Source: Calditrichota bacterium
GTDB taxonomy: Bacteria; Calditrichota; Calditrichia; RBG-13-44-9; J042
Length of the DNA: 64,000 bases
Reading direction: 5' to 3'
NCBI GenBank assembly: GCA_013150955.1
Contig: JAADJD010000028.1
Coordinates: forward strand, 1 to 64,000
The notes beneath the pieces were generated by a model. The model worked only from the letters and a program-made list of their open reading frames with translations, was not told the origin of the DNA and ran no database searches. A program made the translations under genes and the position numbers. Below, in pieces: positions 5,833 through 40,615 of the stretch (position 1 is its first letter; each line of letters begins with the position of its first letter).

Positions 5833-6459
5833 CTATTTCACCAGCATCATCTTGATGGTTTTCTGGAAGGAACCGGCTTTCATGCGTAACAGGTAGATCC
5901 CGGTAGCCACGGGCCGCCCAGCCTGATCCACACCGTTCCATTCAATCTCGTACCGTCCCGCCTTGCGGAAACCGTTTTCCAGCACGGCGACCTTCCGTCC
6001 CCGGATATCGTACACCACAATTTCCACCTGTTGCGCATGGGGAATCTGGTATTCAATCCGAGTAGATGGATTAAAGGGATTGGGATAGTTTTGATTTAAT
6101 CCATACGTAAATGGCGGGTTGACCGGTTCGTCATCCAGGGCCAGCACTTTTGGATTCAGCCATTTCAGAATGCTCTTCAACACATCCCGTCGCAACGTGC
6201 TGTCGGCAATTGTTTCGTAACCGAACGCCAGGTAAACGACCCGGAACGTTCCAGTGTCCACCTTTAATCCGGCCGTTCCACTGGAAGCGGTATCCCGTAG
6301 CGCTACTGTGGACGGCGAGCGCCTGGAAAATCCTGGCCGATCGTCCACGGTAGGCAGGGTGAGGCTTCTGCTCAGGGCGGTGGTCTGTGTTGTATCTCCC
6401 GGATTGTAGATAAAAATTGGTGTTGCCGGGGCAATGGGATCAATCTCGCTGGGCCACCA
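5833..6459 (-). pseudogene. Headless C-terminal remnant of a type IX-sorted secreted protein
   Basis: An open frame of 209 codons with no ATG and no signal peptide, so it cannot be a functional secreted protein. It starts directly after the stop codon of the upstream glycosyltransferase and is in the same frame. The N-terminal half has a segment (VVYLAFGYETI.....RRDVLKSILKWL) of the type found near the end of large secreted peptidase-like proteins. The C-terminal half is a complete sorting domain: NYPNPFNPSTRIEY, then VVYDIRGRKVA, GRYEIEWNG and a final GIYLLRMKAG strand ending in basic residues. A GTG at 6348 could start translation but would yield only this domain. I read it as the product of a deletion that removed the N-terminal part of the gene. 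Confidence 0.75.
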
Positions 6460-17598: not shown

Positions 17599-17614
17599 GG
17601 AAAATTTTTCTTTA

Positions 17615-17948
17615 AACCCAGATTATGCCTTAGCCCACGAATCACACGAATTAAAACGAATAAAAATAATAAAATTCATTGGATAATATCTGGATGAAAA
17701 AATGTGTTTTGTGGTTTATTCGCGATTTTAACCCAGATTATGCATTAGCCTACGAATGACACGAATTAACACTAAAAAAATAATAAAATCCGTTTGATTA
17801 TATCCGGATAAAAATGTGTTCCGGGATTTAATCGCTATTTTGTTGATATTTTTAGGATTTATTCGTGTGATTCGTGGTTTGATGCATTATTTGGGTTTAT
17901 AGATTAGTTTCATTCGTGTGATTCGCGGTTTAATGCATTATTTATGTT
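17615..17948 (+). repeat. Dispersed palindromic element, one copy nested inside another
   Basis: This is the best-preserved site of the family. A complete 168-bp copy (17730-17897) begins AACCCAGATTATGCATTAGC, has the left arm CCTACGAATGACACGAAT, an AT-rich interior with ATCCGGATAAAAATGTG, the right arm ATTCGTGTGATTCGTGG, and ends TGCATTATTTGGGTT. The two ends are inverted repeats of about 38 bp. The full copy interrupts an older copy: its left part is at 17615-17729 and its right end at 17898-17948. The arms contain ACGAAT blocks spaced 9-10 bp apart. The site lies between the convergent ends of the protease and a TPR lipoprotein; the rest of the 441-bp gap holds no gene. Confidence 0.88.
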
Positions 17949-18744: not shown

Positions 18745-20094
18745 TTAACGGATCAAAACCATGCGTCGTGTGAGAACAGTCTTTTCCGTTCGTAACTGAT
18801 AGTAATACAATCCGCTGGGCAATCGCTGGCCCCGATCGTTGCGCCCATCCCATTCCACCCGATGAATCCCTGCCAGCTGGGGCCGGTGAACCAGCGTCCT
18901 GACCTTTTGTCCAAGGCCGTTGTAGATCGCCAGGGTTACCCAGCCGTCGTCCGTCAGGTGATACTCGATGGTGGTTGACGGATTGAATGGATTGGGATAA
19001 TTGGGCAAAAGCTGCACGCGGGTTGGCACCAGATTGCTACCCGCAAAATCGGGATTTTCGCCCAGACGGAAAACGCCCAGTTGCTCAACCGCACTCCGCA
19101 CAATCTGCCGGTCGGGGAAAACAACGCTGGGCAATGCTTCCCAGCCCTCTCCTATCTTCCGGTAGACAAACAATTTCCCCGCATTCTGTACCTGCTCGCC
19201 ATCATAGCGGAGCTCCAGAATTAACGGTCGGTCAAACGGCCGGTGGGGCAGAAACCGATACACCAGCCGGTCTCCTTCTTCCTCCGGCAGACAAATTAGA
19301 AAGGTTTCCTCAGCAACGGCGTCCGCCGGTACCGTCAACCGCACCCGATTCAGTGGATCCACCAGTGTCCCCTCCCGACCCGGCAGCATCTTCAGTACGG
19401 AGAAGGTGCGATCCGCAATTCCCGTAATGCCATTCAGGCGTGTGGCGGTGGCTTGTAGCCGATATACACCCGATCCGGAAAACGCCAGCTTGCCCTGATA
19501 CAGGCGTTCCGTATTCTCCAGTGGAATCATGGGGATGTTTACCGTGTCCTTTTCGGTAATTAAGACAACATCCGGGGCGGATTTTAACCGGACATCAGAG
19601 GCAATAATTAAATTGGCATGGCGGGTCAACGCCGGATTTTGCAATAAGGAAAAGGTAAGCTGTGGGGGATTGGGATTAATGGCTACCACCAGCTCGAAGG
19701 TCAGGGAGTCGCTTAAGGGGGGCACCCCATTATCCTGAATAAAAATTTTGACCACATAGATTCCGGTATCCGCCAGCGAAGGGGTACCGCTCAACACCCC
19801 GGACGGTGAAAGTGCCAGCCAGCGGGGTAAGCTGGCTGCCCTGAACGTCACCGAATCGCCCTCGGCATCCTGCACCAGAATGGGGAACCGGTAGGGGATA
19901 TCTTCAAAACCCGTGTCCAGACGGGTCGTCACAAAATAGGGAGCGGTATTGCCAATCTTTACCACCAGCTCAAACGTCAGCGTATCCCCCAGCGGCGGAA
20001 TGCCGTTGTCCTCCACGGCAAGCTCTACCAGGGTCACGCCCGTGTCCTGTAAAGAAGGCGTCCCCGTCAGCCAGCCATCCGCACTTAACTGCAA
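18745..20094 (-). CDS. LRR/Ig-like surface protein, C-terminal part (separated by frameshift)
   Basis: This frame of 449 codons continues the protein that begins at 21987. It has no signal peptide and starts inside an Ig-like repeat, so it is not an independent gene. It contains the end of the third repeat and a fourth one (NTAPYFVTTRLDTGFEDIPY...), both of the cadherin/He-PIG type with the pattern TAPYFVTT....DGDS.TF..LP.WL....DG.L.GTP...DTG, then a beta-rich region, then the type IX sorting domain (NYPNPFNPSTTIEYHL ... AIYNGLGQKVRTL ... GLYYYQL). It is in the same frame as the N-terminal part; only the repeat between 20164 and 20439 is out of frame. True coding probably extends upstream to about 20160. 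Confidence 0.72.
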   Translation of the reverse strand: MQLSADGWLTGTPSLQDTGVTLVELAVEDNGIPPLGDTLTFELVVKIGNTAPYFVTTRLDTGFEDIPYRFPILVQDAEGDSVTFRAASLPRWLALSPSGVLSGTPSLADTGIYVVKIFIQDNGVPPLSDSLTFELVVAINPNPPQLTFSLLQNPALTRHANLIIASDVRLKSAPDVVLITEKDTVNIPMIPLENTERLYQGKLAFSGSGVYRLQATATRLNGITGIADRTFSVLKMLPGREGTLVDPLNRVRLTVPADAVAEETFLICLPEEEGDRLVYRFLPHRPFDRPLILELRYDGEQVQNAGKLFVYRKIGEGWEALPSVVFPDRQIVRSAVEQLGVFRLGENPDFAGSNLVPTRVQLLPNYPNPFNPSTTIEYHLTDDGWVTLAIYNGLGQKVRTLVHRPQLAGIHRVEWDGRNDRGQRLPSGLYYYQLRTEKTVLTRRMVLIR

Positions 20095-20440
20095 CCAGTC
20101 CGGAAGTTGCAGCGCCTCAAAATGCAGGGAATCGCCATCGGGATCACTGGCAAGGATCTGCCCGATACTCCCGCGCCACCAGCGCCGTGTCCAGACGGGT
20201 CGTCACAAAATAGGGAGCCGTATTGCCAATCTTTACCACCAGTTCAAACGTCAGCGTATCCCTCAACGGCGGAATGCCGTTGTCCTCCACGGCAAGCTCC
20301 ACCAGGGTCACGCCTGTGTCCTGTAAAGAAGGCGTCCCCGTCAACCAGCCATCCGCACTTAACTGCAACCAGTCCGGAAGTTGCAGCGCCTCAAAATGCA
20401 GGGAATCGCCATCGGGATCACTGGCAAGGATCTGCTTCGG
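19949..20440 (-). repeat. Recent tandem duplication of an Ig-like repeat unit with two indels
   Basis: Two nearly identical units lie 274 bp apart (the same sequence starts at 19949 and 20223, and at 20107 and 20381), differing at only a few bases. At the same codon of each unit the sequence between GAGTA(C/T) and CAGATCCTTGCC is shortened: five bases (CGAAG, 20435-20439) in the upstream unit and four (CGGG, 20161-20164) in the downstream one, where an undamaged unit of this gene has six. Each indel shifts the frame and together they restore it. The middle unit is therefore read only in a third frame, at about 20144-20434. Confidence 0.85.
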
Positions 20441-21987
20441 TACTCCCGCGCCACCAGCGCCGTGTCCTGCTCCACTGGCAAAAACCGGGGTTTCCGATTG
20501 TCCAGCAGCACCAGAATGTCTGCCGTCAGCGTATCCCGAAAAATCGGAAATCCGTTATCCGCAACCAGAACTTCGACCACCTGCATCCCCGTGTCGGCCA
20601 TTGCTGGTGTGCCAAAAAGGAGTCCATCAGACCGAAGGTGGAGCCAATCGGGCAACTGAATGGCCGAAAAGGTGAGCGAATCACCATTGGGATCGGTTGC
20701 AAGCAACTGAAATTGATATTCCCGGGCCACATAGGCCGTGTCCAGCTTTTCCGTTAAGAACCGGGGCGGGCGATTTCCCGGCAACACCTGCAGTTGAATG
20801 GGCTCGGACACAAATTCCGTAATCCCGGATCCGTGATTCATGTTCGCAAGCGCTGTCCCGTAAACCCGGACGCGATACGTCCCGGAATCCGACAGCTGCA
20901 CGGCGGCTAATTGAATTTGCGGAGTTGTCCATTCCGGAATCATGGTGCCATCCTTGTACCATTCGTATCGGGTTGCGGAATCCTGTGCGGCGATGCCAAA
21001 TTGCAGGGGATAGAATTCCACCACCACCAGGGTATCCCGTTGGCCAAAGGGTTTTTGCGGCGCATACTCAAAATCCAGGAGGTTCGGCAGACGGTCGATG
21101 ATCTTCAATTCCCGGGCATCGGAAAAATCCAGTTTGTTGCGCTGGCAATACATGAATTCCAGTTGTTGACTGGCCGAGAGATCCGGCAATCGCCACAGCT
21201 GGTTATTGCGCACATCCAGCAGCCGCAGCTGGGTCATTCCGGAAAGATCACCGAGGTCTTCCAGCTGGTTATCCGCACAATCCAGATAGATCAAATCCTT
21301 CAATGCCGAAATGCCCGGCAATTCCTTTAATTGATTCTGGTAGCAGCGCAGATCCGTCAGATTGGTGTTTTGTGACAGGTCGGGTAGCCGTTCCAGCCGA
21401 TTCTCATAAACCCATAGCACGGATAGTTGTTTCAGGTTGGAGAGGTCAGGCAGCTCGGTTAATTCATTGCCCGAGCAATACAACTGGGTCAAATTCACAT
21501 TGTTGGAAAGATCTGGTAATGATTTCAGGCGATTATTGCTACAGTTCAGGATTTGCAATAATCGCAGGTTCGAGAGATCCGGCAACTGTTCCAGCTGATT
21601 GTTCCCGCACCAGATGCCGGTGAGCGAAATCAGGTTGGAGAGGTCTGGCAGTGAAGTCAGCTGATTGCCTTCGCAAAATAAAAATTTCAGTCCGGTGATG
21701 GGCGACAGGTCAGGCAAAAACGTTAACTGATTGTAGCTGCATCTGAGGTCAGTAATGTTAACGAAGTATTCGATCCCGGTTAAATCCCGGATTCCCTGTC
21801 CGCTACAATCGAATGTTTCTTTCACGGTGGCCGCCGAATCGACAATCAGGCTATCGCCCACCATAAACCCGGGATAATTAGCGTTAATGAATGCCCGGAA
21901 ATTCGGATCGGGAATGTAGACCAGTTTTTGAGCAAGCAGGGGCATGTGGCCGAGTAACAACAAAACCAGCAAGGCCTTCCACCTCAT
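20359..21987 (-). CDS. LRR/Ig-like surface protein, N-terminal part
   Basis: A secreted, probably surface-attached protein for adhesion or ligand binding. A signal peptide (about residues 1-20, ending LLAQ) is followed by a leucine-rich-repeat domain of about 12 units with the unusual repeating PDLS motif (NQLTSLPDLSNL, NRLKSLPDLSNN, and so on; about residues 60-290), an Ig-like domain with a WYKDGT strand near 330, and the first cadherin/He-PIG-type repeat (NRPPRFLTEKLDTAYVAREY). The frame is lost in the second repeat and stops at 20359 after unrelated residues. The ATG at 21987 is chosen because AGGAGG lies six bases upstream. With the C-terminal part the intact protein would have about 1,080 residues. 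Confidence 0.8.
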   Translation of the reverse strand: MRWKALLVLLLLGHMPLLAQKLVYIPDPNFRAFINANYPGFMVGDSLIVDSAATVKETFDCSGQGIRDLTGIEYFVNITDLRCSYNQLTFLPDLSPITGLKFLFCEGNQLTSLPDLSNLISLTGIWCGNNQLEQLPDLSNLRLLQILNCSNNRLKSLPDLSNNVNLTQLYCSGNELTELPDLSNLKQLSVLWVYENRLERLPDLSQNTNLTDLRCYQNQLKELPGISALKDLIYLDCADNQLEDLGDLSGMTQLRLLDVRNNQLWRLPDLSASQQLEFMYCQRNKLDFSDARELKIIDRLPNLLDFEYAPQKPFGQRDTLVVVEFYPLQFGIAAQDSATRYEWYKDGTMIPEWTTPQIQLAAVQLSDSGTYRVRVYGTALANMNHGSGITEFVSEPIQLQVLPGNRPPRFLTEKLDTAYVAREYQFQLLATDPNGDSLTFSAIQLPDWLHLRSDGLLFGTPAMADTGMQVVEVLVADNGFPIFRDTLTADILVLLDNRKPRFLPVEQDTALVAREYRSRSLPVIPMAIPCILRRCNFRTGCS

Positions 21988-22305
21988 GAATGGCCTCCTC
22001 ATAATTTTTCATGATTGTGAAAAATACAGGGAACTCCGCACCAAATCTGTGAAAAAGATCGAAAAGGATTGCTTCCCTCGGCCAGACGAACCAGCTATTC
22101 CATTAGTTGGTATGAAAAGAAATACAAGTAAAATCAAAAACTTAGACAATTAAAATTTTATAAAAAAGCCCACCGTTGTCAAGCTAAAAAGTGGGCCCTG
22201 GCCATTTTATTTCGCGCTTTTCCGGGGCGATTCAAATCCCTTGATTAAGCGAGCTCTGGTTGTTATTTTAAAAAGCTTAAATTTAAACAAAGAAAGTCAT
22301 TTCGC
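21988..22305. other. Divergent intergenic region before purF
   Basis: No gene is visible. On the plus strand TTGATT (22241-22246) and TATTTT (22264-22269) are 17 bases apart and could be a sigma70-type promoter for purF, with a moderate match (4 of 6 in each box). A weak GCCCAC/GTGGGC hairpin lies at about 22167-22195 and has no T-run on its plus-strand side. I see no PurR-like operator or riboswitch that I could defend. Confidence 0.3.
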
Positions 22306-40377: not shown

Positions 40378-40615
40378 CCAAATGAAGCGTTAAACCACGA
40401 ATCACGCGAATGAAACCAAAAAATGTCGACAAAAGCGCGAATAAACTATGGAACACATTTTCATCCAGACACAATCCAATGTATTTTATTGGTTTTATTT
40501 GTGTTCATTCGTGTAATTCGTAGGCTATTGCTTAATCTGGCTATTGCTTAATCTGGGATTATTTTTATTGGTGCTAATTCGTGTAATTCGTGTTTCTAAT
40601 GCATAATCTGGGATT
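40378..40615 (-). repeat. Dispersed palindromic element, reverse orientation, with extra partial copy
   Basis: A complete element in reverse orientation begins CCCAAATGAAGCGTTAAACC, carries ACGAATCACGCGAATGAAAC and the reversed interior AACACATTTTCATCCAGACA, and reaches ATTCGTGTAATTCGTAGG and TTGCTTAATCTGG. A second end copy follows (ATTCGTGTAATTCGTG, then ATGCATAATCTGGGATT). The start codon of the next gene directly abuts it. Confidence 0.84.

Follow-up and report, generated by a model that had tools for sequence, protein, structure and literature searches.

Some kinds of secreted repeat protein are phase-variable in other bacteria, and tandem repeats that are nearly identical to each other recombine readily. 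Draft (meta)genomes are known to contain local assembly errors where scaffolds are joined and at repeats, and the overlap between two scaffold ends often matches the largest k-mer or falls one base below it, according to the assembler used (Chen et al. 2020, PMC7111523). Here we describe a frame-broken LRR/Ig-like gene in the draft genome of a Calditrichota bacterium, on a stretch of 64,000 nucleotides (contig JAADJD010000028.1, termed C22 below) which was analysed as a whole and is referred to as the window. Two indels split the gene, and we are highly confident from the sequence evidence that both would prove to be faults introduced during assembly, with no biological reality.

The gene encodes, in order, a signal-peptide-like N-terminus, LRRs (PF12799), an Ig-like domain, four He_PIG units (PF05345) and a FlgD_ig/T9SS sorting tail (Table 1). 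As assembled it is divided on the minus strand into an upstream ORF (22002–20359) and a downstream open frame (approximately 20202–18745). The FlgD_ig tail (PF13860) at its C-terminus scores 42.2 bits against a cut-off of 27, and a core T9SS protein, SprA_N (PF14349, 130 bits, cut-off 27), is encoded elsewhere in the genome. With both a sorting tail and a translocon component present, the gene product is a predicted T9SS cargo.

Table 1. Coordinates of the LRR/Ig-like gene, its repeat units and the 91-bp blocks in the window.
Feature	Position	Strand	Remarks
LRR/Ig-like gene as assembled	18745..22002	-	ORF/profile evidence and sister ortholog
He_PIG unit 1	20500..20775	-	Intact, 276 bases
He_PIG unit 2	20225..20499	-	Lacks one base at 20435-20439; runs out of frame into a stop at 20359
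He_PIG unit 3	19951..20224	-	Lacks two bases at 20161-20164; back in frame past this unit
He_PIG unit 4	19678..19950	-	Intact
Tandem duplication of ~274 bp, two copies, 96% identity	19911..20467	-	Equals He_PIG units 2 and 3; bounded by GGACACGG
Perfect 91-bp block, unit 2 copy	20345..20435		First indel site at the high edge, 20435/20436, an inferred assembly join
Perfect 91-bp block, unit 3 copy	20071..20161		Second indel site at the high edge, 20161/20162, an inferred assembly join
Exact 91-bp block elsewhere in the window	40450..40540		Common to C20:126024-126114; join signature like that of the indel site
Restart duplication of 16 bp across the edge of that block	40523..40556		29 bp at the C20 copy

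Between GAGTA(C/T) and CAGATCCTT, read on the minus strand, lie six bases in He_PIG unit 1, five at 20435–20439 and four at 20161–20164, hence the sequence is as an earlier note on this DNA had described, and the distances from unit to unit along the array are 276, 275 and 274 bases. Unit 2 drops out of frame and runs into the stop at 20359, and the frame returns past unit 3. This net change of −3 bears out a further observation of that note, that the flanking parts share one frame and only the middle is shifted. Both breaks fall at one homologous position, a coincidence which exceeds chance, and this position is the exact edge of the perfect 91-bp block found in units 2 and 3. Mutagenesis at a quasi-palindrome or hairpin was considered, as ATCGGG and CCCGAT flank one of the sites, and was rejected because the DNA folds no better than shuffled sequences.

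The length of the block proved to be a property of the assembly at large. Every maximal exact repeat was catalogued over 2.05 Mb, roughly half of the genome, where the counts fall steadily to approximately two per length bin at 80–90 bp; at exactly 91 bp there are then 19 repeat pairs, and beyond this length only two more. The blocks in units 2 and 3 are one of these 19 pairs. Contig ends C49/C64 and C22/C41 overlap by exactly 91 bp, the latter overlap being the right end of the contig that carries the window, and several N-gap flanks have exactly 91 bp in common with their repeat copies. Because this length recurs at contig ends and N-gap flanks, we read it as an assembly parameter, the k-mer overlap of the assembler, and not as biology. 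A pair was flagged automatically if it was associated with a contig end or N gap, or with a restart duplication 5 bp or longer. Flags were raised for 15 of the 19 pairs at 91 bp vs 14 of 128 at 60–75 bp, with an intermediate 11 of 34 at 76–88 bp, some of which probably have edges in common with 91-bp blocks. The pair in units 2 and 3 was missed by the automatic flags because bases are missing there, not duplicated; by eye, three more 91-bp pairs with an indel at the edge were recognised, namely the present site and those in C23 and C35.

At other 91-bp pairs, in coding and intergenic DNA alike, one edge of the block bears small errors which differ between the two copies (small indels, restart duplications, and one or two N). 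In a frame-broken LVIVD-type repeat gene on C18, duplications of +4 and +16 bp lie at the homologous position of adjacent, near-identical units, where the identical block measures 90 bp when counted from the start chosen initially and 91 bp when taken as a maximal match. In a VCBS-type repeat gene that is likewise frame-broken, the two copies show +3 and −7 bp (C23:449/893). Further twin errors of unequal length were found at C45 (6/5 bp), C40 (16/17 bp), C23 (25/19 bp), C23–C41 (12/14 bp) and C20–C22:40540 (29/16 bp), among others. In one further case, a single repeat is joined via “NN” at C47:35012 and via “N” at C49:46856, and a 9-bp overlap, GTTTTTATC, stands unmerged to either side of the join, whereas other genomic copies of this repeat run through without it. 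Runs of N in the assembly are 1, 2, 4, 5, 8, 12, 63 or 126 bases long, several of them located at repeats. The error at most 91-bp edges is a short duplication, sometimes with N; the site in units 2 and 3 differs in that bases are missing and N is absent, as at one C23 copy. Apart from the duplication of units 2 and 3, the restart duplication in the region 40450–40556 is the only tandem repeat reported by TRF in the window.

The recurrence of the signature suggests how the two indels would have arisen. As the perfect match between units 2 and 3 equals the 91-bp k-mer overlap, the assembly graph would branch there, and the flanking contig pieces would then have been put together inexactly, with the loss of one base in unit 2 and of two in unit 3. 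The real gene would accordingly be expected to be open throughout and to contain four He_PIG units, its product being a secreted LRR/Ig-like protein that ends in a type IX secretion tail.

A sister species of the same genus (G001, MAG S139_29_esom, WFTQ01000089.1) was the single other genome of the genus compared. The sister ortholog is unbroken (989 aa) and has three He_PIG units. The tandem duplication of approximately 274 bp is absent from it, which suggests that the extra unit is probably a duplication in the lineage of the window; as this duplication is absent there, the sister cannot show the proper sequence of units 2 and 3 at the site. Downstream of the indel, units 2 and 3 differ by seven substitutions, six of which are synonymous in the He_PIG frame where approximately 2.1–2.4 would be expected (P = 0.002–0.006), and the other two frames show no bias. 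The gene therefore remained under constraint once duplicated, with both units read in the correct frame over most of the period that followed, which leaves for the indels either a very recent origin or none in the organism at all. A search of the gene for further stops or frame breaks found none. Among 54 genes with sister orthologs on the contig of the window (approximately 19,000 codons), the present gene is the single clear internal frame split, the few other flagged cases reading as shadow ORFs, terminal differences or a remnant gene, hence generally poor base accuracy was rejected. Genome-contig and viral-contig scans, from which records of the genome itself were possibly left out, returned no second assembly of the same species.

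These data bear on the possibility that the gene is a young pseudogene, in which an indel arose after the duplication, was copied into the neighbouring unit by gene conversion and then changed again, with a real loss of function. A conversion tract would leave the two units identical beside the indel, as they are in this block, near-identical tandem repeats readily recombine, and several further genes of the genome with T9SS tails are frame-broken. However, the tract would have to match by chance the assembler's overlap length, to which it is exactly equal, as seen at contig ends and N gaps; twin indels also occur at intergenic repeats, where there is no gene to lose; and neither other lesions nor relaxed constraint were found in the present gene, its substitutions respecting the correct frame. 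We consider real decay of this kind improbable. Decay had been one reading of the other frame-broken T9SS-tail genes; two of them (C18 and C23) proved to be broken at the edges of 91-bp blocks. The breaks on C56 (at about 1466) and C6 (two, at about 98.4 and 102.0 kb) had no tie to such blocks in the approximate half of the genome that was read.

Since the net change is −3 and the frame is the same before and after both sites, programmed ribosomal frameshifting could in principle yield one protein from the split gene. This was rejected as extremely unlikely, as two different shifts at two sites would be needed, a recognisable slippery heptamer is absent and the sister gene manages without either shift.

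The earlier note had left two interpretations side by side, consensus error at near-identical repeats and an indel hotspot that would act as a switch of surface protein expression. A single homologous site with two different lengths in a secreted repeat protein is what would be expected of the latter, and this original observation is the positive evidence for a switch, with nothing found beyond it. The indel site has no homopolymer, short tandem repeat or invertible element in its sequence, and the fold of the DNA around it is unremarkable, with z-scores near 0 relative to shuffles. Comparison with homologues, which the note had suggested, found the sister ortholog intact and most of the listed He_PIG homologues of relatives in long open frames. 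The assembly fingerprint, moreover, accounts for the position without any switch mechanism, and the same signature occurs at non-coding repeats and N gaps. A phase-variation hotspot, at which indels in this codon would make expression of the surface protein vary within a population, is thus very unlikely, and we assign an equally slight chance to the variant in which the indels are real and variable in the population, with recombination between near-identical He_PIG units switching a T9SS surface protein in the absence of a simple-sequence repeat. Of the two interpretations it was assembly error that held up, through the 91-bp fingerprint and the twin errors elsewhere.

Other repeats in the genome were also observed. 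The T9SS-type C-terminal part has approximately 107 matches in the 4.07-Mb genome vs 67 in the sister species; some of the tails of this genome are nearly identical as DNA, and such tails may be a source of assembly trouble in themselves. A short ORF with a T9SS tail in the window (5833–6348, minus strand) corresponds to no more than the C-terminal 212 residues of an open frame of 1,541 aa in the sister, measured from stop to stop (G001:C89:43547–48169), and is probably a remnant or a replaced gene. A dispersed intergenic repeat of roughly 170 bp, of the ACCACGAATCACACGAATGAA... type, lies at 17600–17850 and belongs to a high-copy family with many genomic sites, in which many copies are degenerate.

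Read as an assembly artefact, the biology of the locus is ordinary, a secreted repeat protein that is probably intact and in which one unit was duplicated recently. In this and similar draft genomes, frame breaks in repeat-bearing exported genes should be checked against the edges of k-mer-length repeats before phase variation or decay is claimed, and a spike in exact-repeat lengths matched to contig-end overlaps offers a check for join errors that requires no reads.

Compared with known systems, the gene resembles T9SS cargo with FlgD_ig or Por_Secre_tail domains in its signal-peptide-like N-terminus, repeat domains and FlgD_ig tail, but differs in that its tail scores below the cut-off for Por_Secre_tail (PF18962), and secretion of the product is predicted only. 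With contingency loci for phase-variable surface proteins it has in common the frame-breaking length differences and a repeat-bearing, predicted exported protein. It is unlike them in that the site is without a simple-sequence tract or invertible element, no variation was seen in the relatives compared, the one sister ortholog being intact, and the position of the indels is set by assembly overlap. The present join differs from the errors described by Chen et al. (PMC7111523) in having no N and in being shortened by 1 and 2 bases, and for this reason it resembles a mutation; the likeness to those errors lies in joins at overlap-length stretches, in the presence of N gaps and in repeat regions whose protein-coding sequences come out wrong.
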